From: Candidatus Shapirobacteria bacterium
Lineage (GTDB): Bacteria; Patescibacteriota; Microgenomatia; UBA12405; BS750m-G30
Direction of reading: 5' to 3'
Assembly: GCA_016783425.1 (NCBI GenBank)
Contig: JADHWP010000003.1
Coordinates: forward strand, 1 to 41,320
Length of the DNA stretch: 41,320 bases
Part shown: positions 2,270-40,344 of the stretch, one piece after another
Numbering within the stretch: position 1 is the first letter of the stretch
How the letters are laid out: every line of letters begins with the position of its first letter
Translations under genes and position numbers: made by a program
The notes under the pieces: generated by a model
What the model was told of the DNA's origin: nothing
What the model saw: only the letters and a program-made list of their open reading frames with translations
Databases searched by the model: none

Positions 2270-4192
2270 CTAAGGTGAACGAGCGCACCAGGCGGCAAGA
2301 AGGATTAATAATATCAGTAAAAAATAGAGCTTGAGTAACCCTAAGACCGGAAAAAAGAATAAACTGGTTAAAACCGCTCCTAAAAAAGCTCCGATCAGAT
2401 CAGCCGGATAAACAAGGCTAATTTTCTTTTTGTTTTTAGCCAAATCACTGACTGTCATCCCAAAAACCAGCCCGCCATTAAAACCTAAAAACCAAGCCAG
2501 CCCCCACCAAAACCAAAGAGTTTTAACTAACACCAACCCCGCCATCACCAAAACGTAACCAACCAGGGGATAACCTATTTTTCGCAAATCCCAACCCTTT
2601 TTTTCCACCAACCCTACCCCAAAACTCATCCCTAAAAGAACTAAGCCGAAAATAAAGGCCAACTGGCTGTATAAAGAGCCAAAGTTAGCTTGAAAAAGAA
2701 AAACCAACAGGACCTGGAGACTCATTAAAATAAAACTGGAAATCCCAGCCAAAACCAGCCTTTTTTCTTTTTTCTTAAACCACCCGATTAAAATTCCCAT
2801 ACTGATTAAAAAAACAATTGGCAGCCAAAAACCCAAGTGATAAATTATTTTTGGCAGTCTAAAATTAAAAAGAGTCTGCCAAAAAAGGGTTTGATAAAAA
2901 AAGCTAACCGGCCTAAGATCACGGTTAATTTGGGTCGAAGTTTTTTGCCAGCGATCCAAAACCAATTGGCGATCTATTCTCTGCCGCTGATAATCAAAAA
3001 AATCAGCTGAAAAAGCGGGGTAAATCTTTTGTAAAAATCCGAATCTTTCTCTGTTAGCCACTAATTTTTCTTTGCCTCCCAAAAGTAAAAGTTGGTCTTC
3101 TAAAAAGAAAAGCTCATTATTCTTAAAAATTGAAGTAAAAGTTTGGTAAAGACTGCTGCCCAACCTAACCGCTTCTTCACTCTGATAATTGGTCGGCAAA
3201 CTAAAAACCAAAGCTAAAACACCATCTTTGGCCAAAGAATTATGAGCCACCTGCCAAAATTCCCGGGTGTAAAAGCGATTCAGGCTTAAACTGCTGGGGG
3301 CTGGTAAAGAAAGCAAAATTAAGCCCAGTGAGTCAATTTTACCGGCCAAATGTTTTCTTAAGTCCGCCCTAATCGACTTAACAACAGGAGGCAAAAACTC
3401 TTTTTGGGCGGCTAATAATAAAGGGTCTATCTCTATCCATTTAAAAGTTTTAATTTGAGGATAAAGAGCTAAAGCAGAAGCCAGTTCGGGCTGACCGACT
3501 ACTAAAACTTGGTTTAATTGACCAACAAACGGCCAAATCAAACCAGCCAAAAGCTGACTATCGGTTTTTGCCGGCAAAGAAAAAGTTAACTGGCCGGATA
3601 AATAAAAATTTATTTGTTCTTCTTTTTCGGTTCGAATAATTTGTTGATAGGGGGAATTGGACACTTCTTTTAACTCCGGATAGATTTTTCTCAAACTACT
3701 TTGATTTATCCTTTCCGGTAAAGGAAAGGAGGTTGAGGCAAGAAAAAAACTAAAAAACAATCCGCCGACAAAAAAACCTAAAGTCTCCCAAAAATAGGCC
3801 AAATTAAAACTTAAATTCTTAAATGATTTTAGGCCGGTGATAAACAACCAGCCTAAAATTGGGGCAAAAAAAACTAAGGAAAGTGCCAGCAGTAAACCCG
3901 CTTGGCCAAAAGAAAGCAACTGTCCGGGCATTACTATTTTGGCCGCCCAAAGCCGGATACCGATCACCAGTAGCGGCAAAAGCAAGCCCAAAGCAGTTAA
4001 AAGCAGCCATAATTTTCGGGTTGAAAACTTTTTGGCTTTCCTGCCCCCAAAACCGCCCAAAGCGGCCAATAATAGCCATAAGCCCAGGGCTAAGATATAA
4101 AAAACCTCGTTGCCGTAGGAAAGATTAACAATTTCCCGTAATAAAACAATCTGGCCTAAAATCGAAATTAACCCCAACCAGAAAAAAAACAT
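2270..4192 (-). CDS. Multi-TM protein with spermidine-synthase-like methyltransferase-fold domain
   Basis: Hydrophobic N- and C-terminal halves around a Rossmann-like segment VLVVGQPELASALALYPQIKTFKWIEIDPLLLAAQKEF...DSLGLILLSLPAPSSLSLNRFYTREFW. Confidence 0.75.
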   Translation of the reverse strand: MFFFWLGLISILGQIVLLREIVNLSYGNEVFYILALGLWLLLAALGGFGGRKAKKFSTRKLWLLLTALGLLLPLLVIGIRLWAAKIVMPGQLLSFGQAGLLLALSLVFFAPILGWLFITGLKSFKNLSFNLAYFWETLGFFVGGLFFSFFLASTSFPLPERINQSSLRKIYPELKEVSNSPYQQIIRTEKEEQINFYLSGQLTFSLPAKTDSQLLAGLIWPFVGQLNQVLVVGQPELASALALYPQIKTFKWIEIDPLLLAAQKEFLPPVVKSIRADLRKHLAGKIDSLGLILLSLPAPSSLSLNRFYTREFWQVAHNSLAKDGVLALVFSLPTNYQSEEAVRLGSSLYQTFTSIFKNNELFFLEDQLLLLGGKEKLVANRERFGFLQKIYPAFSADFFDYQRQRIDRQLVLDRWQKTSTQINRDLRPVSFFYQTLFWQTLFNFRLPKIIYHLGFWLPIVFLISMGILIGWFKKKEKRLVLAGISSFILMSLQVLLVFLFQANFGSLYSQLAFIFGLVLLGMSFGVGLVEKKGWDLRKIGYPLVGYVLVMAGLVLVKTLWFWWGLAWFLGFNGGLVFGMTVSDLAKNKKKISLVYPADLIGAFLGAVLTSLFFFPVLGLLKLYFLLILLILLAAWCARSP

Positions 4193-20099: not shown

Positions 20100-22009
20100 A
20101 ATTCATATTTCTCCTTTCAATATTTATTTTTCAAGTAGAAACTTTTTCTACTTCTACTTATTTTACCAGGTAAGAACATATTCTTACCTTAATTGACCAA
20201 AAATCAGATTGTTGAGATTAAAAAAGAAAAATCTTGCTCGGTTGATAGGTACAGCTTGGCTTAAACTATTACTAGTCTTACACCGGCTGCCCATGCCCAG
20301 TAGTCTCCTGGGAACCTGATAATGATTCCTAATCTCGGGGTGGGCTTCCCGCTTCAGATGCTTTCAGCGGTTATCCTTTGGAAACATAGCTACCCGACAA
20401 TGCTCTTGACAGAACAATCGGTACACCAGAGGTTTCCCCAACCAGGTCCTCTCGTACTGTGGTCAGCTCCCCTCAAGAATCAACGGTTACTGCGGATAGA
20501 GACCGAGCTGTCTTACGACGCTCTGAACCCAACTAACGCGGCGCTTTAATGGGCGAACAGACCAACCCTTGGCCACTTCTTCATGGCCAGGATGCGCCAA
20601 GTCGACATCGATGTGCCGATCCGGGCCGTCTATATGGACTATCGGGCCCGACCAGCCTGTTATCCCCGGGGTAGTTTTTATCCGTTAAGCCCCATGTTTA
20701 ACCATTCAAGCATGGGGGATCACTAAGACCTGCTTTCGCATCTCTCCGACGTAACGTCGGAGTGGTATCACCTTAAATCTCTTCAATCTATTGAATGAAA
20801 GAAATAAAAGGATTAACCAGCTCGACTTGTAAGTCTCGCAGTTAGGCTAGCTTCTGGCTTTGCCCTTACAGTTCGGTTTCCATCCGAACTAAGCTAACCT
20901 TTGTACGCTCGCGCTACCTTTTAGCAAGCGGCTGCCCCAGCCAAACTGACCACCAAACACTGTCCCTGTCCGAGTATTCATCGGACTTAGGTGAGACGCA
21001 AACATGATAAAGGGTGGTATTCCACTGGTCTCCGACGTAACGTCGGAGTCCCACCTATTCTCGACAATTACCAAATTCTAATCAATGTTAAGTTTCAGTA
21101 AAACTCCACGGGGTCTTTTTGTCCTGCAGTAACTAACCGGCATATTCACCGGTATTTCAATTTCGCCGGATGAAGGGTCGAGACAGTTGCTCGGTCGTGA
21201 AGCCTTTCATACTGGTCTGAACTTACCAGACAATGGACTTCGCTACCTTTGGATCCTTAGAGTTAGGACCGTCGTTCACCAGGGCTTCAGTTTGAGGCAG
21301 GTCGAAATTTCGACCCACCACGCCCCTTAACCTTCTGGCACCGGACAGGCTTCAGCCCCTATACTTCCCCTTACGGGTTTGCAGAGACCTGTGTTTTTGA
21401 TAAACAGTCGCCGAGCACTCGTTCGCTGCGGCCCCGCAGTTGCGGGGCAAGGCATCTCCCGAAGTTACGCCTAGCTTTTTTGCCGAGTTCCTTGACCCTC
21501 CTTCTTCCGATCGTCTTAGTATACTCAACCTGCCCACCCGTGTCGGTTTTCGGTACGAACGCTATTTTTTCTCCCAACGAAGCTTTTCTGGGTACCAGAA
21601 CCCGATAGGATTTCCCAAACAAGTTTGGAATTCCGGCAAGTCTTACTTTAAAACGGAATGGCGGATTTGCCTACCACTCCTAGCTCAACTAACCGATGCG
21701 GCAATTTCACTGCCACACCCCACCTCTCCCGATACGTCCCTCCCTTGGTAGTAACGAAAAAACAACGGGGCTGGAATATTAACCAGCTGTCCATCCACTA
21801 CCCCCGCATGTTGCGGGACTCATGTTAGGCTCGCCTAACCCTCAGACGACGAACGTGGCTGAGGAAACCTTGGGCTTTCGACGATTTAGATTCTCACTAA
21901 ATTTACGCTACTCATGCCGGCATTCTCGCTTCCCAGCGCTCCACCCCGCCTCACAGCGGGACTTCACTGCCCTGGGAACGCTCCCCTACCAACTCGCTCG
22001 TAGAGCGGG

Positions 22010-22150
22010 AAATTCCAAATCACAAATTCCAAGATACAAACAATAAATTACAAATCCCCAAGTAATCCAAACTGGATGTTTAGAGATTGGAATTTGGTTA
22101 ATTGTAATTTGTCTGGAATACTTGGTACTTGGTTATTGAAATTTTTTGTT
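22010..22150 (-). repeat. AT-rich quasi-palindromic insertion in 23S, helix 45-equivalent position (IVS-like)
   Basis: CAAATTCCAA-type left half and TTGGAATTTG-type right half; flanked by stem TCGTAGA/TCTACGA; adjacent to GTTGGTAGGGGAGCG of the helix 45 region. Confidence 0.8.
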
Positions 22151-22816
22151 CTACGAACGAATTCTCCGTTTTCGGTGGTCTGCTTTAGCCTCGATAAATT
22201 TTCGGCGCAACCTATCCTCCGCCAGTTGGCGGATCGACCAGTGAGCTGTTACGCTTTCTTTAAAGGATGGCTGCCTCTAAGCCAACCTCCTGGCTGTCTA
22301 GGATCGATCACTTCCTTCCCCACTTAGCAAGACACTTAGAGACCTTAAACGGGAGTCTGGGTTGTTTCCCTTTCGCCCAACCAGCTTAGCCCGGCTGGAC
22401 TGACTACCTGATAACACTACTCGGTATTCGGAGTTTGGTTGAACACCGGAGATCGCTCCCCAAATGCTCATTCAGTCGCTCTACCCCCAAGTAGATAAAT
22501 TCAGGCGCTATACCAATATATATTTCGGGGAGAACCAGCTATTTCCAAGTTCGATAAGCATATTACCTCTAACCACAGGTCATCCGAAGGGTTTGCAGCC
22601 CCTACCGGTTCGGGCCTCCTTCCGACTTTCGTCGGAATTCACCCTGCCCATGGTTAGCTCACTTGGTTTCGGGTTTTCCGCCAGCCGCTTATATGTCGCC
22701 TTATTCAGACTCGGTTTCCCTACGCCTCCGGTTTGTAAAAACCTTAGACTTGCGGATGACGAAAACTCGCCGGCTCATTCTTCAATAGGCACGACATTAC
22801 TCGCCTGCAGGGCGAG

Positions 22817-22948
22817 AAAATCACAATATTCAAATAACAAGATCCAAACAAAATTCAAATACCAAAATTCAAACTATGAAATCTTAACATTTGAAATTTG
22901 GAAAATTGGTTATTGTTTGAGATTTGACTATTGGAACTTGAGATTTCC
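22817..22948 (-). repeat. AT-rich quasi-palindromic insertion in 23S, helix 25-equivalent position (IVS-like)
   Basis: Lies after GAACCCCGGAAGGGGAGTGAAATAGAATCTGAAAC; flanked by GCCTGCAGG/CCTACAGGC stem. Confidence 0.8.
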
Positions 22949-23015
22949 TGGTCCTACAGGCAAGCTCTGTCTGTTTGTTAGCAAATAGTTTCAGATTCTA
23001 TTTCACTCCCCTTCC

Positions 23016-23046
<31 letters not shown>

Positions 23047-23270
23047 ATACGCTATCGGTCAATAAGAGTATTTAGCCTTTCCGGATGGCCCCGGAAGATT
23101 CCCACGAAGTTTTGCGTGTTCCGTGGTACTCAGGTACTCTGGCCAAACTTAGTCAAATTTCATCTACAGGACTTTCACCTTCTTTGGTAGACCAATTCCA
23201 GGCCTTTTGATTATCTTTTCAGTTTGGACTATCAGAGCCCTACAACCCCCACCTCGCGCTCCGCGCGAGA

Positions 23271-23402
23271 AACTCCAAGCTCCAAATTCTAAATCCTAAA
23301 CAAGATCCAAATTACAAATTCAAAATTCCAAAATAATTTTTGGAAATTGAAAATTGATTATTGGCCATTGTTTGGAAATTGAAAATTGAAAATTGAAAAT
23401 TG
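23271..23402 (-). repeat. AT-rich quasi-palindromic insertion near the 23S 5' domain (IVS-like)
   Basis: Contains TTTTTGGAAATTGAAAATTGATTATTGG and GAAAATT tandem repeats; flanked by GCGCGAG/CTCGTGC. Confidence 0.8.
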
Positions 23403-23755
23403 CTCGTGCGAAGCACAAAGCAGGTTTGGGCTTCTCCCTTTTCGCTCACCGCTACTAAGGGAATAATTATTATTTTCTTTTCCTCTGGGTACTAAGATGT
23501 TTCAGTTCCCCAGCTTACCCCCCCGACGTTACGTCGGGGTCCTCCGATTCAACATCGAAGGGGGTTATCCCATTCGGACACCGCCGGATCACAGGTTACA
23601 GACACCTCCCCGACGCATATCGCCGTCTGTCGCGTCCTTCTTCGGCTCTTATCACCAAGGCATCCACTATTTGCTTCTTTGCAAGATTCTATCTTTTTTT
23701 TCAACAATCTGATTCTTTAGTCAATTACTTTACTTTTAAGTTGTCAAGGTGCGGG

Positions 23756-25104: not shown

Positions 25105-26042
25105 TGAGCAACACTTTTGACGCTATTACCTTTGGCTCGGCCACCATTGATGTTTTTTTGGAAAGCCCGCAATTTGGTAAAAAACTTGAGTTGGCCTATG
25201 ACTCTAAAATTGAAGTTGAGCAAAAGCTAGTTTCTTGCGGTGGAGGAAGCACTAACGTGGCAGCTGGACTATCTCGTTTGGGCTTAAAAACAGCCGCAGT
25301 AGCCCGCTTGGGCCAAGATCAATTTGCCCCCTTAGTAAAAGAGGAACTAATAAAAGAAAGAGTGGAGGTTAGGTTACTTTGTATCAAGCCCGGAGATAAA
25401 ACTGACTCTTCAACCATTTTGGTAAATTCTTCAGGGCAAAAGGTAATTTTAGTTTCCCGCGGACCCACCAGACTGGAAGCCCAGGATATTAACTGGAGCC
25501 AACTTTCGGCCAAACAGTTCCATATCGCTTCTTTAGAAGGAAATTTAAAACTCGCCTCAAAACTAATTAACTATGCCAACAACCACGATATAAAAGTATC
25601 CTGGAACCCGGGCTCCCGCGAACTGGCTCAAAAAAACAAGCTCATTACTTTGCTTAACAAAATTGATATTTTAATTCTTAATCAGGAAGAAATAGAAAAG
25701 CTAACGGGATTAAAAATGACTAACCCCTTTTTTTGGCCGGAAATTTACAAACTCCCCGTTCCCCTGCTTACTATTACCCAAGGCCAAAAAGGATGTTTTT
25801 TGGCTTTTCCCGAACAAAAGCAAAAAACTCATCTTAAGGCAATTAAAACCAAAGTAATCGAAACTACCGGCGCGGGCGATGCTTTTTGCGCCGGCTTAAT
25901 TGCCGGTTTGTTTTATCAGGAAACTGCCCAGGAAGCCGCTCTTTGGGGGCTAGCTAACGGCGCTTCGGTTGTGGCTCAATATGGAGCCAAGGCTGGTTTA
26001 CTAACTCGGGGAGGGATAAAAAAATGGTTGAAAAAACGCTAA
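25104..26042 (+). CDS. PfkB-family carbohydrate kinase
   Basis: CGGGSTNVAAGLSRLGLKTAAVARLGQDQF and ETTGAGDAFCAGLIAGL. Confidence 0.93.
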   Translation: MSNTFDAITFGSATIDVFLESPQFGKKLELAYDSKIEVEQKLVSCGGGSTNVAAGLSRLGLKTAAVARLGQDQFAPLVKEELIKERVEVRLLCIKPGDKTDSSTILVNSSGQKVILVSRGPTRLEAQDINWSQLSAKQFHIASLEGNLKLASKLINYANNHDIKVSWNPGSRELAQKNKLITLLNKIDILILNQEEIEKLTGLKMTNPFFWPEIYKLPVPLLTITQGQKGCFLAFPEQKQKTHLKAIKTKVIETTGAGDAFCAGLIAGLFYQETAQEAALWGLANGASVVAQYGAKAGLLTRGGIKKWLKKR

Positions 26043-27001
26043 GTTTTGCCAGAAAAAAACTAATTAGTCCTCAAAAAAATAAGAAAAAGAGAGATTTAAT
26101 TAAAGAGCGCAAAATTATTGGTTGGACGCTTTTAATCAGTATTGGCTTAAGCGCTCTTTTTTACCTGGCCGCTAACAAGCCAAAGGTTAATTTTAGTTTT
26201 AAACTCCCCTCCTTTTCCAGCCCTCTTCCCAAAAACCCTTCTATTGGGAAAAAGGCGCCAGCGCAACTGGAGAGTTTAGTCTTTGAAATTATTGGCCAAG
26301 ATAAAGAAAGCTGGGCCATTTGGGTAGAAGATTTAGAAAATGATTTTATCTGGAGTTATCAGGATAAAAAAATCTTTCCGGCTGTTTCTTTAATAAAACT
26401 ACCCGCCATAACCACTCTTTATCAACTAATTGAACAAAAAAAGTATCAGTTAGATCAGGAAATGATTCTAACCAAAGAGGATATTCGCGGCGGAGCGGGA
26501 AGCTTAAACAGTCAGCCAATCGGAACAAAATTAACCTTAGAAGAATTGGCCCGCCTTTGTTTAAACCAATCGGACAACACCGCCTTTGCCATGGTTAAAA
26601 GATTACTCACTAACCAAACTATTTCCAGAAATACCTTCTCTTTGGGTTTAATTAATACTTCTTTGGAGGAAAATACCACTACCGCTCAAGACATGGCTCT
26701 GTTTTTTAAACTGCTTTATCAGGGTGAGCTTTTAAACCAGGAGTTTACTAATAAGCTTATAAATCACTTGACCGACACTGCTTTTGAAAACCAAATTCCC
26801 CAGGGGGTGCCCCAGGGAATAAAAGTGGCTCATAAAGTAGACATAGAAATAGACAGCCTGGCGGATGCGGGGTTAATTTTAGTTCCCCAAAGACCAATTA
26901 TTCTCGTTTTTCTCACTAAAAGCTTAAATCAAACTGAAGTTGAAAAAACCATGGTTGATCTGACCCGCGAAATCTACTGGTTTTTGGTTTCTGCTGATTG
27001 A
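26024..27001 (+). CDS. Serine hydrolase, class A beta-lactamase-like fold, membrane-anchored
   Basis: VSLIKLPAI (SxxK), NQSDNTA (SDN), N-terminal TM. Confidence 0.8.
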   Translation: MVEKTLSFARKKLISPQKNKKKRDLIKERKIIGWTLLISIGLSALFYLAANKPKVNFSFKLPSFSSPLPKNPSIGKKAPAQLESLVFEIIGQDKESWAIWVEDLENDFIWSYQDKKIFPAVSLIKLPAITTLYQLIEQKKYQLDQEMILTKEDIRGGAGSLNSQPIGTKLTLEELARLCLNQSDNTAFAMVKRLLTNQTISRNTFSLGLINTSLEENTTTAQDMALFFKLLYQGELLNQEFTNKLINHLTDTAFENQIPQGVPQGIKVAHKVDIEIDSLADAGLILVPQRPIILVFLTKSLNQTEVEKTMVDLTREIYWFLVSAD

Positions 27002-29160
27002 TCTTCTTCTTTAGCTAAAAACCAGGAAGAGGAGCAATGTTCCTGGGGTGCGGTTCCCTGCAAAAAATATTCCTCGCCCACTTGCGGACAACCTTCGCAA
27101 GCAAGGGTGCCGGTTGAACGGCAAATGGGAATTTTAACTATATTTTCCGGTGTTTCCCAGCCGGTGTTGGGATATGCTTCCAGCATTAGATCAGTAATTC
27201 TTCTCCAAATAGGAGTAGCGCCGGTAATCCCCGAGGCAATCCGACTCATGGGAGTATTGTCGTTATTGCCCACCCAAACCGCCACTAAAAATTCGGGCGT
27301 GTAGCCAATCGCCCAGTTATCCCGCAAACCATTACTGGTTCCGGTTTTCACCGCCACTTTCTGATTAGGAATATTAAGCAGGGAATTTAAGCTAAAAGCC
27401 CGAGCTCGAGCATAATTATCGGAAAGAATATCATTAAGCAAAAAGGCTACCCCGGAATCTAAAACTAACTCTTTCTGGCCTTGATTTTTTAACTCATATA
27501 ATTTTTTTTCTCCGACCGAAGGCTTAACGGTTAAAAAGGGAGTTAACTCAACCTTGTTTCCCAAATTGGCCAAAACACTATAAGCTTGAGCCAAATCAAT
27601 CATTTTCACTTCTCCGCCCCCTAAGGTTAAAGAAAGGCCAAAGCGGGAGCGATCCGCCCAGGTAGTAATTCCCATTAGCTCTCCCTGTTTAATCATTTCT
27701 TCTACTCCCAAAGCGGCCAACACTTTTACCGCCGGAATGTTAAAAGAAGAAGCTAAAGCGGTGCGCAAAGAAACATTGCCATGGTATTGGCCATCATAAT
27801 TTTGGGGCGAATAAGGCTCCTGGTAAGGCAAGTGAAAGGTAATAGCCGTATCCGGAATAATGGTGGCCGGGGTAAAACCGCTTTGCAAGGCTTTAGCGTA
27901 ATTAATCACCTTGATCGCCGAGCCAGGCTGACGCGAACTTAAGGTAACATTAACATTCCCATCATTGGTAAAATCAAAATAATCTTTACTCCCCGCCATG
28001 GCCAAAATCTCCCCGGTTTTGGGCCGAATAATTAAAGCCGCCCCGTTCCCCACTCCTAAATGGGCAATATGACCTAACTCTTCTTTAATAATCTGCTCAA
28101 CTTGTCGTTGCAGATCCAGATCCAAACTGGTGACTACTTCCAGGCCCCCCTCCTCTAAAGTTTGCTCTCCCCATTTCTCCACCAGCAAATCCTTAACATA
28201 AAAAACAAAATGGGGCGCTTTTAAAGAATCATTGCTTAAACTTAAACGCAAAGGCTCTTGAGTCGCATTCTCTGCTTCACTTTCGGTTAAATAACCCGTT
28301 TCCACCATCGCCGACAACACCCGTCCTTGTCTTTCTTTAGCTAAAGTAGGGTAAGCCCCAAAAGGAGAAAAGCGGGTGGGCCCGGCGGGCAAACCAGCAA
28401 GTAAAGCGCCTTCGGCCAAATTAACATTTCGTACCGATTTGGCAAAATATTTTTGCGCCGCCTCTTCAATCCCGTAAGCAGTTCCGCCGTAAGACACTTC
28501 ATTAAAATACATTTGCAGAATCTCGTCTTTGGAAAAGCGCTGTTCTGCTAAAATAGCTAAAATCGCTTCCTTTATTTTTCGCCGCCAACTTTTTTCAAAA
28601 TCCAAAAGGGCGTTTTTCACCAGCTGTTGGGTAATGGTGGAACCGCCCACCGGCGCTTTTTGAGGATTGGTCAAATTGTGCTTTACCGCTCTTGCTATTC
28701 CTCGCCAGGACAAACCACTGTGATTATAAAATTCCCGGTCTTCAACCGCAATGGTCGCCTCAATTACAAAATCCGGAATCTCGTTCAAAGGGATTAAGGT
28801 TCGATTTTCCTCATGGTAAATTTTGTAAAGCAAATTTCCCTTACGATCGTAAATCTTGGTGGTTAGCGCCAAAGGGCGATCAATTAACTTTTGCGGAGAG
28901 GGCAAATCTTTTAAGATATTTAAGTAAAAGCCCCAAAAAGTAATCAGAGCCAGAGTAACGCCCAAAAACAAACTTAACCAGGAGCGCCGAAAACTAACCT
29001 TAGGAAAAGGGATCTTCGGGAGGAAAGAAAACAAGGGAAGCAAAATCAAACTGCCGACTTTTTGAAAAGTTACCAAAGCAAAACGCAAAAAAAGATAAAT
29101 AGGCCGACCGAGCCAATTTAATATTTTTATTATAAACAGTAAAAAGGGTGAGAAAAACAT
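26974..29160 (-). CDS. Penicillin-binding protein 1A (transglycosylase/transpeptidase)
   Basis: AVEDREFYNHSGLSWRGIARA, GGSTITQQLVKNALL (GT51); RQPGSAIKVINYA, KTGTSNGLRDNWAIGYTPEFLVAVWVGN. Confidence 0.95.
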   Translation of the reverse strand: MFFSPFLLFIIKILNWLGRPIYLFLRFALVTFQKVGSLILLPLFSFLPKIPFPKVSFRRSWLSLFLGVTLALITFWGFYLNILKDLPSPQKLIDRPLALTTKIYDRKGNLLYKIYHEENRTLIPLNEIPDFVIEATIAVEDREFYNHSGLSWRGIARAVKHNLTNPQKAPVGGSTITQQLVKNALLDFEKSWRRKIKEAILAILAEQRFSKDEILQMYFNEVSYGGTAYGIEEAAQKYFAKSVRNVNLAEGALLAGLPAGPTRFSPFGAYPTLAKERQGRVLSAMVETGYLTESEAENATQEPLRLSLSNDSLKAPHFVFYVKDLLVEKWGEQTLEEGGLEVVTSLDLDLQRQVEQIIKEELGHIAHLGVGNGAALIIRPKTGEILAMAGSKDYFDFTNDGNVNVTLSSRQPGSAIKVINYAKALQSGFTPATIIPDTAITFHLPYQEPYSPQNYDGQYHGNVSLRTALASSFNIPAVKVLAALGVEEMIKQGELMGITTWADRSRFGLSLTLGGGEVKMIDLAQAYSVLANLGNKVELTPFLTVKPSVGEKKLYELKNQGQKELVLDSGVAFLLNDILSDNYARARAFSLNSLLNIPNQKVAVKTGTSNGLRDNWAIGYTPEFLVAVWVGNNDNTPMSRIASGITGATPIWRRITDLMLEAYPNTGWETPENIVKIPICRSTGTLACEGCPQVGEEYFLQGTAPQEHCSSSWFLAKEEDQSAETKNQ

Positions 29161-29289: not shown

Positions 29290-30588
29290 TTACTGGCTTA
29301 ATTCTTCCAGGTCATTATCAGAAATGCCTAATTGATTTAAAATCCAAATATGTCTAGGATTTGCCGGATCATATTTACCAATTCTGAATCTTAACAATTC
29401 TTCGGGGTTTTCCCTTATAACAGCCCACACCCCTATATTTCCCTCCCTGTAAATAATATCTTTTTCAAGACATACTCCCCGAGTAGCGCAATTTGTTCCC
29501 CGGAAAGTTCTCACACACCTTTTCCAGGCATTTCTTTGAGCAGCGGCTAAAGCATCAGCTGAGTTTTTCCCAGATACTAATTTTTCGAGATAAAAATATT
29601 TTTCCATTATTTCATATACTCCCCGAAAATCTCTTGGCTGACCATCTAGCCCTTTGGCCAAACCTATAGCTAAATGACCCAACAACCCTGAAAAATCTTC
29701 TACCTTGCCATCCAAAGCTTGCTCCCTTGTGGCTGCCACGCCCTCCTCACCTTTTTCATAACGGTCAAATCCCAATCCCAATAATTGCAAACGGCTCCTT
29801 TCTCCATTAACTCTTCTGGTTACATGAGTGCCAACTTCATGAGCCACTAATTTTTGTAATTTAGCAAAAGCCAACCTTCTTGATTCTGGAACTTTTATTA
29901 CCTTGTGTTCTTGATCAATACCAACTGCAGTCCTACTTCCAGTATCAACCACAACACTCCAACCCTCGGCTCCTAGAGCATTAAGAGCCTCTTGAAAAAT
30001 GTCACGTATTTCCTCGGCAGCATATTGTTTTCCTTCCTCTGGGGGTTCAATATTTATTAAATCCCCCAGTTCCAGAAGTGTTTGAGCGCGAGCAGTAGCG
30101 ATATCATTATCGCTTGGCAACTCTTGTATTGACACTTTAGGTAAATCTGAAGGTAATAGATCAGCCAGCTCTTCTGCAGCCTTTTTAATATCAGGATCTT
30201 CAGAAGATAAATGAGGCTTAATACTGCTTCTTATATTTTGAATGGTATAGGCAAATATTTCTAAAGACGGTTTTCCATAAATAAATTCGGAATATCCCCG
30301 AAATCTTATCATGTCACCATCTTTTGCCGCCCGCAACATTCTAACTTCTGCAATTTTTACGTTTATTTTCCATCGATACAACTGCCTAATTACCTCGTTT
30401 GGCTCTCCGCTAATAACATCCCTTTTTAACTGGAGAAGAGCTGCCTCATCTGCCGATAACCTCTCTTTATCAATCTCTGGATAATCTAAAGTCGGATTAA
30501 GATTTTCGCCACTAAGAAACTGTTGTTTTTGCTTTTCTCTATCCGATGCATCACCTTCCAAATATTCATAAGCCTCAAAAGAACCCAC
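29290..30588 (-). CDS. DUF1704-like (MATCAP-type) zinc metalloprotease homolog
   Basis: KLVAHEVGTHVTRRVNGERSRLQLLGLGFDRYEKGEEGVAATREQAL: HExxTH followed by EEG. Confidence 0.7.
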   Translation of the reverse strand: MGSFEAYEYLEGDASDREKQKQQFLSGENLNPTLDYPEIDKERLSADEAALLQLKRDVISGEPNEVIRQLYRWKINVKIAEVRMLRAAKDGDMIRFRGYSEFIYGKPSLEIFAYTIQNIRSSIKPHLSSEDPDIKKAAEELADLLPSDLPKVSIQELPSDNDIATARAQTLLELGDLINIEPPEEGKQYAAEEIRDIFQEALNALGAEGWSVVVDTGSRTAVGIDQEHKVIKVPESRRLAFAKLQKLVAHEVGTHVTRRVNGERSRLQLLGLGFDRYEKGEEGVAATREQALDGKVEDFSGLLGHLAIGLAKGLDGQPRDFRGVYEIMEKYFYLEKLVSGKNSADALAAAQRNAWKRCVRTFRGTNCATRGVCLEKDIIYREGNIGVWAVIRENPEELLRFRIGKYDPANPRHIWILNQLGISDNDLEELSQ

Positions 30589-32382: not shown

Positions 32383-34584
32383 TTAATTTTCTTCAATAAT
32401 CGCACCGGGGGCAACAAAAGGATCGAGGTTGTTGGGAACGTAAATGTTGGTAGTGGGCCAGGGCTGGTCGGTATTTTCAATGTTCGCCGGGCAGTCAAAA
32501 CAAAAAATAGTTCCGAGCGGATCTCTGTTCATCATGTGCTCCTGCCACTCCAGGTTTTCTTTTTGTTCTCCTGGTTGCACTGGTTGATTAGTATCTTTCT
32601 GGATTAGTACTGGTTGACGCAAAGCCACTGATTTTACCGGCTCGGTTCCCTTAATAAAATATTCATAGCGGCCGGCGCACCCTCCTTCGGGGGGCAGCAT
32701 CCCGGTTTCATTGCAAACGGTTTTTCCCACCACTGTATCCGGCCGAGCCGGAAAACGCTGGGGTTTGTCTTTTAAAACAAAACTGATAATTTTGTTCCAG
32801 ATCGGGGAAGCGCCGGTTACCCCGGAAGCGACCGCGCTCATGAAAGTATTGTCATTGTTGCCCACCCAAACGGTCACCACTATTTCCGGGCTATACCCCA
32901 CCGTCCAGTTGTCCCGCTTGTCATTGGTAGTTCCGGTTTTTACCGAAACCTCGGGATGATCCTCAACCACCAGCAAAGAATTTGACCCAAAAGCGGCGCT
33001 GCGGGCCCCATTATCCAGCAAAATATCATTAATTAAATAAGGAACCTCGGGAGGCAAAACCCTTTTTCCCAAAGTAGATTTCTTTTGCGCCAAAACCTCT
33101 CCGTTGCGGTCCTTTACTTCCAAAATAGAAACCAGATCCTGGCGAATACCTAAATTGGCCAGCACCCCAAAAGCCGTCGCCATCTCCGTCATTTTTACCT
33201 CTCCACCCCCTAAAGTTAAAGACAGACCGTAATTTTCCGGATCAGCAAAACTCTCAATTCCCATCGCCGAAGCGGTGGCGATAAAACTTTCCAGTCCGTT
33301 AACAGCCAGCATTTTTACCGCCGGCACATTAAAAGAGTTGCCCAGCGCGTAGCGCAACTGCACCACTCCGTGAAAAAGCCCGTCGTAATTGCGCGGGCAA
33401 TACCCTTTCTGCCCGGGAACGGAAAAGCAAGTAGGCACGTCATTAAAAGTAGTCGCCGGCGTTACCCGGCCGGTCACCAACCCGGTCGCGTAATTAAGGG
33501 GCTTAATCGCCGAGCCCGGCTGACGCAAAGCGGTAGTGACGTTAAACTTGCCATCAATATCATCGGCAAAATAATCTTTACTGCCCACCATCGCCAAAAT
33601 TTCCCCGCTTTTGGGCTCGGTCACCAAAACCGCGCCGTTGGAAACATGGGCTCTTTGCAATTTGGCTACTTCGGAAGCAACCGTACTTTGGGCAAAATCC
33701 TGAATAGTTAAATCCAAACTGGTTTTTACCCGCAACCCCCCCTGATCGACCATGGCCTGACCATATTCTTCTACCAACTGTTCTTTAACGTAAAAAACAA
33801 AATGCGGGGCTTTAATTTTGGCGCCCGGAAAAGCGAAATTTAATTCTTCTTCCCGGGCTTGCCTGGCTTGCTCTTCATTAATAAAACCGCCTTCCCTCAT
33901 TTCGCTTAAAACCAAATATTGACGGCTTAAAGCTACATCCGGGTGAGCAAAAGGAGAAAAGCGGGTGGGTGAGGCGGGCAAACCGGCAAGCAAGGCGCTT
34001 TCGGCCAAAGTTAAATTGGCCACATTTTTATCAAAGTAAGTTTTGGCGGCCGCTTGAATCCCCCAAGCTGTTCCCCCGTACGGAGTTTGGTTAAAATACA
34101 TTTCCAAAATTTGCTTTTTGCTGTAAATTACCTCCGTGGCAATGGTTAAAATCGCTTCTTTAATTTTTCTCCTCCAAGTCCGCTCGGGCGTCAGCAAAGC
34201 ATTTTTTACCAACTGCTGGGTAATGGTGGAGCCGCCCTGAAGCTTCTTTTTAAAAACAATGTTGTAAACCGCCCGGGATATTCCTTTTAAATCAAAACCA
34301 AAATGCTTGTAAAAGCCCCGATCCTCAATCGCCAGCGTCGCTTGAATTAAATGTTCGGGTACTTCCTCTAGCTTTACCGGCACCCGGTTTTTTTCAGTAT
34401 AAATTTCATAAAGCAAACTGCCATTTCGGTCGTAAATTAAAGTAGAAGCCGGGTAGGGGAAAGTGCTTAGCCTGGTTGGGGAAGGTAAATAGGCAATTAC
34501 CAGACCAAAGCCCGCCAAAACCAACCCCAAAAAAGAAAAAATAATTATTCTTCTCAATTTTTTGGGAATCGCCCTGAATTTCAT
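32383..34584 (-). CDS. Penicillin-binding protein 1A (second paralog)
   Basis: AIEDRGFYKHFGFDLKGISRA, GGSTITQQLVKNALL, RQPGSAIKPLNYATG, KTGTTNDKRDNWTVGYSPE; start moved to second Met since TATAAT (34596-34591) overlaps the upstream GTG. Confidence 0.95.
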   Translation of the reverse strand: MKFRAIPKKLRRIIIFSFLGLVLAGFGLVIAYLPSPTRLSTFPYPASTLIYDRNGSLLYEIYTEKNRVPVKLEEVPEHLIQATLAIEDRGFYKHFGFDLKGISRAVYNIVFKKKLQGGSTITQQLVKNALLTPERTWRRKIKEAILTIATEVIYSKKQILEMYFNQTPYGGTAWGIQAAAKTYFDKNVANLTLAESALLAGLPASPTRFSPFAHPDVALSRQYLVLSEMREGGFINEEQARQAREEELNFAFPGAKIKAPHFVFYVKEQLVEEYGQAMVDQGGLRVKTSLDLTIQDFAQSTVASEVAKLQRAHVSNGAVLVTEPKSGEILAMVGSKDYFADDIDGKFNVTTALRQPGSAIKPLNYATGLVTGRVTPATTFNDVPTCFSVPGQKGYCPRNYDGLFHGVVQLRYALGNSFNVPAVKMLAVNGLESFIATASAMGIESFADPENYGLSLTLGGGEVKMTEMATAFGVLANLGIRQDLVSILEVKDRNGEVLAQKKSTLGKRVLPPEVPYLINDILLDNGARSAAFGSNSLLVVEDHPEVSVKTGTTNDKRDNWTVGYSPEIVVTVWVGNNDNTFMSAVASGVTGASPIWNKIISFVLKDKPQRFPARPDTVVGKTVCNETGMLPPEGGCAGRYEYFIKGTEPVKSVALRQPVLIQKDTNQPVQPGEQKENLEWQEHMMNRDPLGTIFCFDCPANIENTDQPWPTTNIYVPNNLDPFVAPGAIIEEN

Positions 34585-34668
34585 CTTTCTATTATACACC
34601 GCGTTCTAAATCCTAAACTCTAAACACTAAACTCTAATAAATGACTAAATCTTAATCACTAAACAAGA

Positions 34669-34823: not shown

Positions 34824-37800
34824 TCACTCTTGAGATGTTTGTGGACCACTTAAAGATGGCGTGACTGGCTCTGATTGCCCTATTACTGGTGTCGGTGTTG
34901 ACGGTTGCGGCGTTAGTGCTGGTGGTGCCGAAGGCAGTGCTGGTGGCGCTACCTGCATCGGCGGCTCTGCTGGCTGGGGCTGCGCCGCTTCCTGGGCTTC
35001 TTTTAATTTGCGCTCCTCTTCTTTCCTTTTTAAAATCTCTTTCGGATCCGAAGTAATTAGTTTGTGCTCCTGGGGAGAAGCAATTATTCTAATGGCTACG
35101 TGATTTTGGCCGGCAAAGAAAATCCCCTCCCCAATGTTAGCGGCCAGCAAAAACTGCCGCTCTCCCTGGGAAAGGTAAAAAAGGTCCCCCACCTGATCAA
35201 TCGCCGCCGGATGCTGTTTAAGTAAAATCTGAATGGAAGAGTTTTTTACAATCGCCCCGCCGTATTTAGAAGTCAAAAAATCATCCACATCTTGAGTAAC
35301 CGTGGTCAAGCCCAAATAATATTTTCGCGCTCTTTTGGCCACCCCAAAAAGAAAACGGGCCGAATCCGGGTAGCGCATCAAATACCAGGCCTCATCAATC
35401 ACCAAAACCCGGCGTTTCAGCTCTTTTCTCACCTTGTTCCAAATAAAATCCAAAATAATGTGCATCGCAATCGGCCGCAGCGCCTCTTCCAAATCCTGGG
35501 TCCCAAAAACCACTAATTTATTTTCAATATTAATATTGGTTTGAGTATTAAAAAGGCCGGCAAAAGCGCCTTTAATAAATTTTTCCAACCGGGCGGCTAA
35601 CGAAGCGGCGGTCTCCTCTTCCATCCCAATCAGCACCTTATAAAGGTCTTCAATCAAGGGCATTTCTTTACCAGTTTGAGTTTCCGGGTCCATAGTAATT
35701 CCCTGGTTTTTATAGGTGGCTACTAAGCCTCTGTCTAAAATCGCTTCTTCTTGAGGAGACATTTTGCCCATAATAATCCGAAACAAAGCATACAAGGAAA
35801 GGATTTTACGGGTCAGCTCATTTTCCCCTTCTTCGGGCTTGATTAGCTCTAAATCAAAGGGATTAATTTTGGCCGGAGAGTTAAAGCCAAAAGTGATGTA
35901 TTGGCCGCCCAAAGCTTGACACAAAGTTTCATACTCATTTTCCGGATCAATCACCATCACTTCAGTATCAAACATTAACGAGCGCAAAGTCTCTAATTTG
36001 ATCATATACGAGTTATGAACAAACATTCCTCCCCGGCCGGCTAAAAAGACCCCGTTATCAACAGTTAAATCATAAACCCAGGGCCGATTATTTTTTAATT
36101 TTTTAACCTTAGTAATCGGGTCCCAAAAAAGACTACTTTCAGCCAAAGTTCGCAACTGGCTTAGAATCATTTTTGCTTTTTGAATCTTTTGCTTTCTTTC
36201 TTCCCAGGTTTTTAAAACATATTTTTTGGCTAAAAATACTTTCTGGTAAGTAAGGTTTGCGTTAGGATTTCTGTTTAAAGCAGAGAAAAATCCTTTGCTA
36301 AAATCTTTCTGATAAACTCCCAAGACCTTAAACGACTCTTTAATATCGCTAACTACCTGGTTAGGAGTCAAGTAAGTTTGAACGGCAATTCTAGAAACAA
36401 TTAAAGCGTTTTTTAATTTTGGCTTAACCTTTTTCTTTTTAGTTACTGCCCAGGAAGAGCCTAAGGCTTGCCAGGCTTGAGCATTAAGCTCCTTATCATT
36501 ACTAACAAGACCAATCATTTCTTCAATAGCCGGCAAATTCTCCAGGCGAGGCTTAACTAAAGTTTGCCATTTTTCTAGTTCATCAATGCGCTTTTCGCAA
36601 TCTTTAATTACTCTCTTTAAAAAGGCGGGAGAAGGATTAAACGCTCTTCTTTTTAAAGCCGAAATGGCCGTGGGAATAGCCACGTTGGTAGTGGGGTAAA
36701 GAATTTTAGCCAACTTACTAAATAAACTTTGGAGCTCGGGAACAATATCAACATTAGTGTTTTCCAGCTTAGTTAAAAGATTAGCCAGGGCCTTCTTTTT
36801 TCTTTGGCTAAAAAAGCTAATATTATCGACAAAATTTTGTAAATGTTTTTTCCCGGAAACAGTTAATTGCCAATAAGTTCGCTTCTTGGGTTTTTTAGAA
36901 CCAACCGCCTGCTTTCTTACTTTTCTAATTCGCGAGACAATACCAAAATAATTAAGCAGATAGCTAAGCTGGCTAATTAATTCTTTTGATTTTGATGTGG
37001 CTGAAACTTGGTGAGCCTCTACTGTTCCATCGCCCTCAAAATAACCTTTGATAAGCTCTGCAATAATTTCTTTAGGTGAAGAAAAAATAACTTCAGGAAC
37101 TTTTTTATTGCCTGCTTTTTGACCAATTCCCAGGCTAATTACTATCTGGGCCAAAAGCCGGCTGGCAAAACGAATCTCTTTATCATGAGGCGAAAAAGAA
37201 TTAAAGCCCAGTTTTCTTCCAATAGCAGCCGCTTTTTTAAGGAGCTTTTTGTCACCCGAGCTAATCGCTATCATTGACGATTGAACGGTTCCCTCGGCCA
37301 CAATCAAACCCAAAAAGAAAGCCAATTCTTTGTCAATCTTCAGCTGGCAACTTAAGCATTTATTTTGCTTAACCCGGGGTCCTAAATAAATATCTTTTAA
37401 TTGATTTTTACTTAACTTAATTTGGGTTTGCTCGCAACACCAATTAAAAAAGCTAATTGGCACTCCTCGATCCTGAACATATTTATAAAAATAACAAAAC
37501 AAGGAATGCTTTTTACCTTTTAATTGCTCCCTAAATTGAGTCATTAAAGGAACAGCATTATAAACAAAAAGATTAGGACTTTTTTCCAAAAGCTTTAAAA
37601 GATTAACCTTTTGAAAAAGAGAAGCGCTTGTTCCAATTTGGCGCGCTAAAGGAACAAATTCCCCCGTCGTAACTGCTTCTCCCTTGCTTAAATTCAGTTC
37701 TCCATTTTTTAAAACCACTAAATTATGATCGCCGGTAATCGTCATTTGCCGGCCGGAGGCGGTAGTAATTTGATAAAGATCGTCAGGAGCTACTTTTCGC

Positions 37801-38771
37801 GCGGCAACCGTTACCTTTGACCACTCGGTTTTAAGTTTAGAGTTAAAAGTATAGACCTCCAAACCCGGCGGGAAAATTACTCCCTTTATTTCCTCATCTA
37901 TGCTGACTGTTTTATGTTTTTTCATCAGCTTATTAATTAAAGGGCCAATGGCGGTTAGTTTTATTTCCCCGTCTTGGCGAATCAACACCGGCTCAAATCC
38001 AGCCAGACTTTTCCCCGCCCCGGATTTGGCAAAAACCACGGTATTGTAATTCTCCATGGTAAACCGGTCAAAAACGACTAAAGAACCGTTGTGCTGATTA
38101 ATTCCGTACATAATCCCTTTATCATCAGAAAGCTCCGAAGAAACAAAGGGGAAAGTGGTTGATAGCGTAGCGGTGGGCATGTTTCGGGTGACATTTAGAT
38201 CGTCCTTGCACAAAGGAAGCACGGTTCTAAACCCTTCTTCCATTTCCAAAATGGCTGTTTTCGGAATAATCATCAAGGCCCCCAGCGAGGCCTGCAACTC
38301 TTTGCTGATCCGGTCCAGTTCAGCCACTGATTCCGCCGAAACGGTAATGTAAAGCCCAAATTGAAAAAACTTTTCCACCCCTTTGGCCAACTTTTCCTGC
38401 AAAGACAGCGCATCTTCCAACTTGGCCTGGGTCGTGGGATCAACTACTTTGCCTCGCTGGATATCAGTAGAAATTTCTGCTTCCATCCGGGCAATAGTTT
38501 TGCGCATTTCGTCCAAAACCCCCTTGCCTTCCACCGGGTAAATATACATCGCAATATCCAGCTCCCGATCAAAATTAACTAAAGGAGAGAGCCAGTTGGG
38601 CGAAACATACCGCGGGTAATTAACCACGTAAAAAGTGCGGTGAAAACGATTATTAATCCGCAAGTAGTTAAAGTCTACTTCTACGGCCGAGGGAGCGATT
38701 ATGTCCTTAATCGTGACCAGGCCCGGAGCCAGGGCTGAAGGCGGAAGTACAGCCTTATCCTTAAATTTCAT
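34824..38771 (-). CDS. VirB4/TraC-type T4SS ATPase precursor containing an intein
   Basis: N-extein VVFAKSGAGK / C-extein SYMIKLETLRSLMFDTEVMVIDPENEYETLC...VLVIDEAWYLMRYPDSARFLFGVAKRARKYYLGLTTVTQDVDDFL. Confidence 0.95.
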   Translation of the reverse strand: MKFKDKAVLPPSALAPGLVTIKDIIAPSAVEVDFNYLRINNRFHRTFYVVNYPRYVSPNWLSPLVNFDRELDIAMYIYPVEGKGVLDEMRKTIARMEAEISTDIQRGKVVDPTTQAKLEDALSLQEKLAKGVEKFFQFGLYITVSAESVAELDRISKELQASLGALMIIPKTAILEMEEGFRTVLPLCKDDLNVTRNMPTATLSTTFPFVSSELSDDKGIMYGINQHNGSLVVFDRFTMENYNTVVFAKSGAGKSLAGFEPVLIRQDGEIKLTAIGPLINKLMKKHKTVSIDEEIKGVIFPPGLEVYTFNSKLKTEWSKVTVAARKVAPDDLYQITTASGRQMTITGDHNLVVLKNGELNLSKGEAVTTGEFVPLARQIGTSASLFQKVNLLKLLEKSPNLFVYNAVPLMTQFREQLKGKKHSLFCYFYKYVQDRGVPISFFNWCCEQTQIKLSKNQLKDIYLGPRVKQNKCLSCQLKIDKELAFFLGLIVAEGTVQSSMIAISSGDKKLLKKAAAIGRKLGFNSFSPHDKEIRFASRLLAQIVISLGIGQKAGNKKVPEVIFSSPKEIIAELIKGYFEGDGTVEAHQVSATSKSKELISQLSYLLNYFGIVSRIRKVRKQAVGSKKPKKRTYWQLTVSGKKHLQNFVDNISFFSQRKKKALANLLTKLENTNVDIVPELQSLFSKLAKILYPTTNVAIPTAISALKRRAFNPSPAFLKRVIKDCEKRIDELEKWQTLVKPRLENLPAIEEMIGLVSNDKELNAQAWQALGSSWAVTKKKKVKPKLKNALIVSRIAVQTYLTPNQVVSDIKESFKVLGVYQKDFSKGFFSALNRNPNANLTYQKVFLAKKYVLKTWEERKQKIQKAKMILSQLRTLAESSLFWDPITKVKKLKNNRPWVYDLTVDNGVFLAGRGGMFVHNSYMIKLETLRSLMFDTEVMVIDPENEYETLCQALGGQYITFGFNSPAKINPFDLELIKPEEGENELTRKILSLYALFRIIMGKMSPQEEAILDRGLVATYKNQGITMDPETQTGKEMPLIEDLYKVLIGMEEETAASLAARLEKFIKGAFAGLFNTQTNINIENKLVVFGTQDLEEALRPIAMHIILDFIWNKVRKELKRRVLVIDEAWYLMRYPDSARFLFGVAKRARKYYLGLTTVTQDVDDFLTSKYGGAIVKNSSIQILLKQHPAAIDQVGDLFYLSQGERQFLLAANIGEGIFFAGQNHVAIRIIASPQEHKLITSDPKEILKRKEEERKLKEAQEAAQPQPAEPPMQVAPPALPSAPPALTPQPSTPTPVIGQSEPVTPSLSGPQTSQE
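36012..38009 (-). other. Intein (about 666 aa) with LAGLIDADG/DOD homing endonuclease, inserted in VirB4 Walker A
   Basis: Ser1 SLAGFEPVLIRQDG (block A), TITGDHNLVVL (block B), FFLGLIVAEGT and GYFEGDGTV (DOD), PWVYDLTVDNGVFLAGRGGMFVHN|S (blocks F/G); both junctions are in frame. Confidence 0.93.
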
Positions 38772-39501
38772 CCTCTGCCTCCCCGCTTTCTATTTTACTA
38801 TTTATGTCCTTCACTAATACCACCGGCACCTCTCCTTCTTTTAAAGGCAAATCATTAGTACTAATTTTCTCTTGATTATAAACGCTGTAGAAAAAAGCGA
38901 CCAACTGCGGTGTTTTTAACTGCCGGACTCTTAAACCCAAGCTTCCCAGAGCGCGAATGATATGCTCTTTTTTCGGCTCTAAATTGGCTCTGGCCCGATC
39001 AATTAGGCTTTTTTTATCAATGGGCAGCCCCTCTTTTTGCTTTGGTTTTAAAAAAGATAAAAAGGGAATCGCGCTTTTAACCGCGCTTACTCCCAGTTCT
39101 AAGCTGGAGAAAGGAATGGCCACGTAAAAAGATTTAGTTAAAACATTATTTTTTTCCACCATTTGAGAAACAAACTGACGGTAATGAGCAATTTGCTTTT
39201 TCACCAAAGGATCGGTTTTTTTCTGCTCCCAGGTCAGCAGGTGCTCTAAATAAGAAGTAACGTCTTTTAAGGCCGAGTGAATAAAAATCTGAAGAGGAAA
39301 GGAAAGAGAATTGATCAGCGAAGCATAAGCGTAAATCATTGCTTCCTGCTCGCGCTCGGAAAGCAGGTCAAAATTAACTGAAGAGACCTCAAAAATATAA
39401 GTACAAGAGCCATCTTTTAAAATGACCATATTATCGGTAATATCCTCAATCGGAAGGTGTTGCTGGGTTGTTCCTTTTAAAGCGTTTTTCTTAACATCCA
39501 T
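38761..39501 (-). CDS. TraC-like/VirB4 N-terminal-domain-like T4SS protein
   Basis: ITDNMVILKDGSCTYIFEVSSVNFDLLSEREQEAMIYAYASLINSLSFPLQIFIHS; directly upstream of VirB4 with 11-bp overlap. Confidence 0.7.
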   Translation of the reverse strand: MDVKKNALKGTTQQHLPIEDITDNMVILKDGSCTYIFEVSSVNFDLLSEREQEAMIYAYASLINSLSFPLQIFIHSALKDVTSYLEHLLTWEQKKTDPLVKKQIAHYRQFVSQMVEKNNVLTKSFYVAIPFSSLELGVSAVKSAIPFLSFLKPKQKEGLPIDKKSLIDRARANLEPKKEHIIRALGSLGLRVRQLKTPQLVAFFYSVYNQEKISTNDLPLKEGEVPVVLVKDINSKIESGEAEDEI

Positions 39502-39516: not shown

Positions 39517-40344
39517 TCAAACCAGCGCCGTCTTTTTGGCTTGAATCTGTAACGGCGCAATAATTTTACCCTCGGCTTGAATTTTAATTATAGCAAAGGC
39601 GTAAGGATCTTTTTCTACCAAAACCAAGTATTGCCCATTGGGCAAGGGGGTAGCGGTTTGGAACTGGCCCAAAAAGCTGGTGCGCATCGCCCTGATCGGG
39701 TTTCCTTCCAGATCCTGAATTTCGACAATTGCTCCTTCTATCGCTCTGCCTTCCGAATCCATTACCAAACCATTAATAATATTGGGAGTGGTGGGAGTCG
39801 CGGGCAAAACCATTTTTAAGTACTCTGGAAAAGTAGAAATAATCTCTCCCCTGGGAGTACCGCCCTGTTTAATCATTTGAATAATTTCTTCAGAAGAGGG
39901 AGTAACTGGCTGTTCTCGCGTTACTGGCGCTGTGGCTACTGGCTTTTCTTTTTTAACCGAAGCTTTTACCCCGGCATCAGCAGTTTTAATCGAAGGCGCA
40001 AATACCTGAACAGGAGCAGGAACGGGCAGAGCCTTATAAGCTACCGGTTGAGGGGAAAAGGGTTTTTTCCAGGTAAAAATGGTGGGCGAATAAGCCGCTC
40101 TGAAAAAAGAAAGCAGCCAAAACTCCAGGGGTTTTTCGTTAAAAGGGATAAAGGCGGTCCCAATTCCTAATAATAATAAAGTTAAACTTAGGGGAATTTT
40201 TAAAATAAAAGTCAAGCCGGAGCGAAAAACAAGGTAAGAAAATACCAGGCCGGCCGCCAGTTTTAAAAACTGCTTTAAAGTCATGCTTCCTACCAGCCGA
40301 AACTCGTAAGAAGATATTTCCTGCGGTATTGGACACTGCTCCAT
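39517..40344 (-). CDS. PrgI-family protein fused to C-terminal carboxypeptidase-regulatory-like (Ig-like) domain
   Basis: IPQEISSYEFRLVGSMTLKQFLKLAAGLVFSYLVF...FIPFNEKPLEFWLLSFFRAAYSPTIFTW (PrgI) and NIINGLVMDSEGRAIEGAIVEIQDLEGNPIRAMRTSFLGQFQTATPLPNGQYLVLVEKD. Confidence 0.8.
   Translation of the reverse strand: MEQCPIPQEISSYEFRLVGSMTLKQFLKLAAGLVFSYLVFRSGLTFILKIPLSLTLLLLGIGTAFIPFNEKPLEFWLLSFFRAAYSPTIFTWKKPFSPQPVAYKALPVPAPVQVFAPSIKTADAGVKASVKKEKPVATAPVTREQPVTPSSEEIIQMIKQGGTPRGEIISTFPEYLKMVLPATPTTPNIINGLVMDSEGRAIEGAIVEIQDLEGNPIRAMRTSFLGQFQTATPLPNGQYLVLVEKDPYAFAIIKIQAEGKIIAPLQIQAKKTALV

Follow-up and report, generated by a model that had tools for sequence, protein, structure and literature searches.

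A probably active homing-endonuclease intein in the P-loop of a VirB4-type ATPase of Candidatus Shapirobacteria, with relatives in VirB4 and UvrB of CPR bacteria

The window considered here, a 41,320-nt stretch of the Candidatus Shapirobacteria contig JADHWP010000003.1 in whose positions all coordinates are given, holds an intein that interrupts the Walker A motif of a VirB4, the single one that the genome was found to contain. We read it as a class-1-type intein with a nested LAGLIDADG endonuclease and an accessory domain, for which we infer homing and splicing from the sequence, and we put the probability of this reading at roughly 0.88; that there is a homing intein in the P-loop we take as real, and its activity as probable. 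The precursor, a VirB4-type ATPase with its intein, is a 1315-aa ORF (34824–38771) assigned by Pfam and NCBIfam profiles; it lies on the minus strand, as do all its parts and the two genes upstream of it. Residues 255–920 make up the 666-aa intein (36012–38009), which splits the Walker A motif between the invariant Lys and the Ser. The N-extein (38010–38771) ends in ...VVFAKSGAGK, and the C-extein (34824–36011) starts with SYMIKLE and contains the remainder of the ATPase domain. The intein itself starts with SLAGFEPVL and ends with GGMFVHN; its excision restores SGAGKSYMIKLE in frame, and the joined flanks read NTVVFAKSGAGKSYMIKLETL. Although Ser is present on both sides, the junction is unambiguous, since the intein has to end with its terminal Asn.

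An earlier note, made from the DNA letters, had proposed a homing-endonuclease intein at just this place in a CPR VirB4-type ATPase, and the profiles, the motifs and the exact junction all bear it out. On the precursor, the Pfam profiles Intein_splicing (50.2 bits, cut-off 35.8), LAGLIDADG_3 (83 bits, cut-off 22.5) and Hom_end (27.6 bits, cut-off 21.1) all match, P-loop_TraG and both NCBIfam profiles intein_Nterm and intein_Cterm exceed their cut-offs; the Hint-domain matches above cut-off are those of PF14890, TIGR01445 and TIGR01443. The VirB4-like profile conju_CD1110 (NF045971) reaches 356 bits against a cut-off of 325, the Walker A motif is intact (SGAGKS) once the insert is removed, and the alignment with 4ag5, the nearest solved VirB4-like chain, spans both exteins. 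Since intein and VirB4 profiles of Pfam and NCBIfam match above their cut-offs, chance is excluded. The N-terminal part of the Hint (splicing) domain (37635–38009) contains block B, TGDH, at intein residues 92–95, with GDHN at 93–96; the C-terminal part (36012–36113, residues 633–666) contains blocks F and G and the terminal VHN. Between them lie the LAGLIDADG endonuclease core (36765–37331, residues 227–415) and a helical accessory domain (36114–36764, residues 416–632). The two LAGLIDADG motifs, GLIVAEG (residues 234–240) and GYFEGDG (322–328), provide the acidic residues E239 and D327, PF14528 matches, and I-DmoI is matched with a target TM-score of ~0.7. The class 1 splicing set is complete, with Ser1, T92 and H95 of the block-B TxxH, H665/N666 and the +1 Ser; the catalytic residues on which the earlier proposal depended are retained, and the P-loop Ser it had named as the +1 nucleophile is present at the VHN|S junction.

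The gene immediately upstream (38761–39501) overlaps the start of VirB4 and gives a weak TraC_F_IV match below the cut-off, and the following one (39517–40344) encodes a PrgI-like protein whose match falls just below the cut-off; the context is that of T4SS genes. The G+C content is 0.376 in the intein and 0.461 in the exteins. A search of the genome itself found a single VirB4, along with a TraG/VirD4-like protein on a separate contig. As no second VirB4 was detected, any VirB4 function in this organism should depend on splicing. We note several other features of the window in their own right: a MATCAP match (PF08014, the microtubule-associated tyrosine carboxypeptidase family; E 7e-23) in this bacterial host at 29290–30588, two class A penicillin-binding proteins (26974–29160 and 32383–34599) with a beta-lactamase-family protein (26024–27001) alongside them, and a 23S rRNA gene (20228–23688) of ~3.46 kb compared with the 2925-position model, a surplus probably due to an insertion of the kind reported for rRNA genes in CPR.

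Relatives of the host gene show what the uninterrupted site looks like. VirB4 homologues were sought in 56 genomes, the window's own and its relatives, and 54 gave a match; in nearly all of these, the query aligned in two pieces meeting at 255|921. The intein-free CPR homologues align straight across GAGK|S, the comparison that the earlier note had suggested, and all 28 empty relatives inspected have an uninterrupted GxGKS P-loop. The insert is in frame, at an exact point and missing from homologues. On the VirB4 tree (50 sequences) the window copy stands among 26 empty VirB4s of its own order, adjacent to its nearest intein-free homologue, with which it shares 82% identity.

When 382 genomes of the window's class were searched by profile, VirB4 inteins turned up in 17, the window counted, and UvrB inteins in 2; a phylum-wide sample added one VirB4 intein and four UvrB inteins. 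The assembled set comprises 22 VirB4 and 6 UvrB inteins, every one from CPR bacteria, and among 85,462 scanned species genomes the strong matches were restricted to CPR records, the others being weak, partial and mainly to the endonuclease part. An origin from a plasmid or phage was considered and dropped: in 72,556 plasmid and 50,697 phage records, nothing matched over 80% of the intein's length. All 28 inteins sit at GK|S or GK|T junctions: 19 of the 22 VirB4 inteins at GxGK|S (site b), the other three, all from Gottesmanbacteria, at a position displaced upstream by five codons, FGK|SGxGKS (site a), and the six UvrB inteins at GSGK|T. T92 and H95 are retained in 28/28; the class 1 splicing residues are kept in the relatives as in the window copy, with Cys1 in one site-b copy (L052). 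E239 is retained in all but one intein with a filled column, and D327 in all but one. Neither LAGLIDADG motif survives in one copy, L106, as would fit a decaying endonuclease, and in another, L054, the first acidic residue is replaced by Lys. For the intein pairs that allowed a dS estimate, dN was far lower (dN << dS, 0.06–0.2), a ratio that is only indicative because synonymous sites are near saturation. In one pair (L057 and L065) the VirB4 exteins are 96% identical and the inteins just 82%, and L065 has a deletion of ~85 aa in the accessory domain; this contrast suggests faster intein evolution or replacement. Separately, the 0.62-Mb host genome (G000) contains at least five intein-bearing ORFs. 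Endonuclease-bearing inteins occur in its GyrA (contig C19, L110; RY|C...HN|TEARM) and FtsH (C10, L109; VVAA|S...HN|SNRGDL), and inteins without a LAGLIDADG match occur on C12 (L108, a 1208-aa ORF from base 3897) and C6 (L107, a 1518-aa ORF). The latter are repeated insertions in a repeat-rich surface-fibre-like protein, each at KLHVEG(Q/E)|C...AHN|TY, with two inteins in the one ORF on C12 and one whole intein plus the start of another on C6.

The AlphaFold model of the window intein has a mean pLDDT of 77, with high confidence in the endonuclease and the accessory domain and low confidence at residues 95–130 and 650–666. The structural expectation holds overall, the best PDB matches being the solved inteins PI-TkoII and the P-loop-inserted TliVMA intein, and is left at low confidence for those two stretches of the splicing domain; the domain arrangement is not to be taken from the model, because global TM-scores are low and the rmsd is large. 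Residues 416–632 are modelled as an all-helical accessory domain (pLDDT 85) with a motif, N..LW..LG.[ST]W, found in 18 of the 22 VirB4 inteins; in L062, L063, L065 and L106 the domain is shortened, with its motif-bearing part lost. At the corresponding position the UvrB inteins have an Xre-type helix-turn-helix (HTH_3, E 1.8e-12), to which the first third of the VirB4-intein domain aligns with an hhalign probability of 96%, partly through a common NTNVDxIP motif. The earlier note had suggested that ~220 extra residues might bind DNA; this is plausible, given that match of the first third, but beyond it the segment is without a detectable relative, and a PDB search with the whole domain found no fold relative at E < 0.001. 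A division into three tandem helix-turn-helix units, made by eye, gained no support when the profiles of the second and third units were compared with the first. We regard the ~220-aa segment as a conserved helical accessory domain.

The intein would act as follows. Translation would yield the complete precursor; splicing would then be carried out by Ser1, the TxxH of block B, His665/Asn666 and, at +1, the P-loop Ser, and the ATP-binding loop would be rebuilt only afterwards. Near GGNAAR|TC, the endonuclease would cut VirB4 alleles that lack the intein, and repair would copy the intein into the cut allele. The evidence for such homing into empty alleles is indirect, a patchy distribution and one conflict between the intein and extein trees; repeated loss in the relatives, rather than gain in the window lineage, is possible. 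It is also conceivable, if rather unlikely, that the intein is an inactive fossil in which splicing persists because it must and the endonuclease no longer cuts. The copy without both motifs and the one with Lys for the first acidic residue show that such states occur in the family; the window copy, however, keeps both acidic residues in an endonuclease core modelled at high confidence, and dN is far below dS in other copies. A domesticated intein, in which splicing would be a regulated switch and VirB4 would become active only in response to a redox or metal signal, is harder still to credit. The P-loop position, which probably leaves the unspliced ATPase inactive, and the lack of a detected second VirB4 in the genome speak for it, and zinc- or oxidation-conditional splicing is described for mycobacterial DnaB inteins (PMC7360933, PMC6195587). 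The sensor would be the CC...CxxC cluster of the window copy (37347–37439, within intein residues 191–221; cysteines at 191–192 and 218–221), for which the earlier note had considered a regulatory role. Its cysteines, C191, C192, C218 and C221, along with C172, are essentially private to this copy and missing from the 27 other family inteins, so that there is no support for a redox or zinc switch conserved in the family, and the cluster was dropped as a family feature. Moreover, close relatives live intein-free, and the endonuclease decay and accessory-domain loss in other copies are what a homing cycle, rather than a conserved switch, would leave. We therefore keep to the active homing intein as the preferred reading.

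On the intein tree, VirB4 and UvrB inteins form separate clades (100/100). For one copy, L059, forcing the intein into its own VirB4 extein clade is rejected (p-AU 0.003), and its same-family VirB4 sister is empty; the tree conflict together with the empty sister supports horizontal acquisition, as for a mobile element. A transfer of the window intein between classes was also considered and set aside, as a single clade for all inteins of the window's class is not rejected (p-AU 0.457).

The two VirB4 sites need a separate accounting. The site-a trio forms a single clade (100/99) nested inside site b, where a 98/94 branch unites it with two site-b copies, so that one 15-bp shift is the simplest account. 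The nearest site-b relatives of the trio carry GKSGxGKS, that is, two GK|S sites, and such a sequence would perhaps offer the intein identical −2/−1/+1 residues at either place. Independent invasion of the two sites by unrelated inteins, with no shift, has a precedent in the separate TerL1-a and TerL1-b inteins at neighbouring P-loop sites (PMC5050341); it appears very improbable here, since the three upstream-site inteins are nested among the main-site ones on supported branches (98/94, 100/99) and all 22 VirB4 inteins form one clade against UvrB (100/100). The choice of site may be written in the serine codons. The +1 Ser codon is TCN at all 22 occupied VirB4 sites, and in alleles with a double GKS the occupied Ser is TCN in 9/9 and the free one AGY in 8/9. 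The class has 121 empty alleles with two GKS sites, and the combination of AGY upstream and TCN downstream occurs in 0 of them, compared with 5 of 6 alleles occupied at site b (Fisher p 2e-8, with alleles counted as if unrelated). Let us suppose that the lineage moves between adjacent GK|S sites of one P-loop and between unrelated P-loop genes, that a synonymous serine choice, TCN being cut and AGY immune, decides which site is occupied, and that infected alleles retain AGY at the free GKS, out of reach of their own endonuclease. We hold such a scenario to be unlikely. Somewhat better than even, in our estimate, are the chances that the serine codons adjoining the intein simply travel along by co-conversion and play no part in targeting: neighbouring extein codons are reported to be carried along in intein homing (PMC10643990), and four of the five occupied AGY/TCN alleles belong to one extein clade, so the pattern may reflect a single event. 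Against this stands the reciprocal pattern, occupied TCN and free AGY, which is also seen in the upstream-site clade and in 8/9 double-GKS alleles overall. Among eight empty alleles of another class, one has the AGY/TCN haplotype and three have AGY at the upstream Ser; with these counterexamples and the single clade behind four of five cases, the pattern was downgraded from a proof of targeting, and we treat it as a testable lead. An AGC-to-TCG change in the window lineage, at one time taken as evidence of co-conversion, was dropped, being ambiguous on the tree.

Insertion between Lys and Ser/Thr of a P-loop is called classic in PMC5050341, and the kind of intein is for that reason already known. 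The archaeal VMA-b inteins (TliVMA, 7qss; PhoVMA) and PI-TkoII (2cw7) share the order of Hint, LAGLIDADG and accessory elements; the VMA-b inteins likewise sit in a P-loop (PMC8966425), and these are the best profile and fold matches of the window intein, which differs from them in its host gene, in an identity of just 17–21% and in a longer helical accessory domain. TerL1-a and archaeal MCM-a occupy the same Walker A position between Lys and Ser/Thr (PMC5050341, PMC10643990), whereas the host here is VirB4 and the members found here are all from CPR; in the known P-loop alleles VMA-b, TerL1-a and MCM-a, only the P-loop position is common with the VirB4 intein. The TerL1-a and TerL1-b inteins of mycobacteriophages use two adjacent P-loop sites in one gene family, as in VirB4; those sites are one residue apart, and the portion of PMC5050341 consulted makes no statement of descent of one intein from the other, unlike the VirB4 sites, which are five apart with one lineage nested in the other. 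Closest are the CPR UvrB inteins, the sister clade, with a common FVHN end and ~31% identity, distinguished by a +1 Thr, an unrelated host gene and the Xre-type accessory domain. We found no report of inteins in VirB4, UvrB or CPR/Patescibacteria/Parcubacteria in a literature search in which subscription papers were thinly covered, and the family has apparently not been described before.

VirB4, the T4SS motor of DNA transfer, and the repair protein UvrB are thus added, from CPR bacteria, to the intein-colonised P-loop proteins. The distribution over two sites is unusual: in nature, a single intein lineage occupies positions separated by 15 bp, and its sister lineage lies in a P-loop gene unrelated to VirB4. 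Through its HTH-like accessory domain, the P-loop TliVMA intein can cut an alternative site at a distance of 52 bp, and accessory domains have been proposed, from engineered VMA inteins, as a route to alternative sites near the homing site (PMC8966425). The VirB4 family makes this proposal directly testable, and the serine-codon pattern supplies a precise prediction for target choice.
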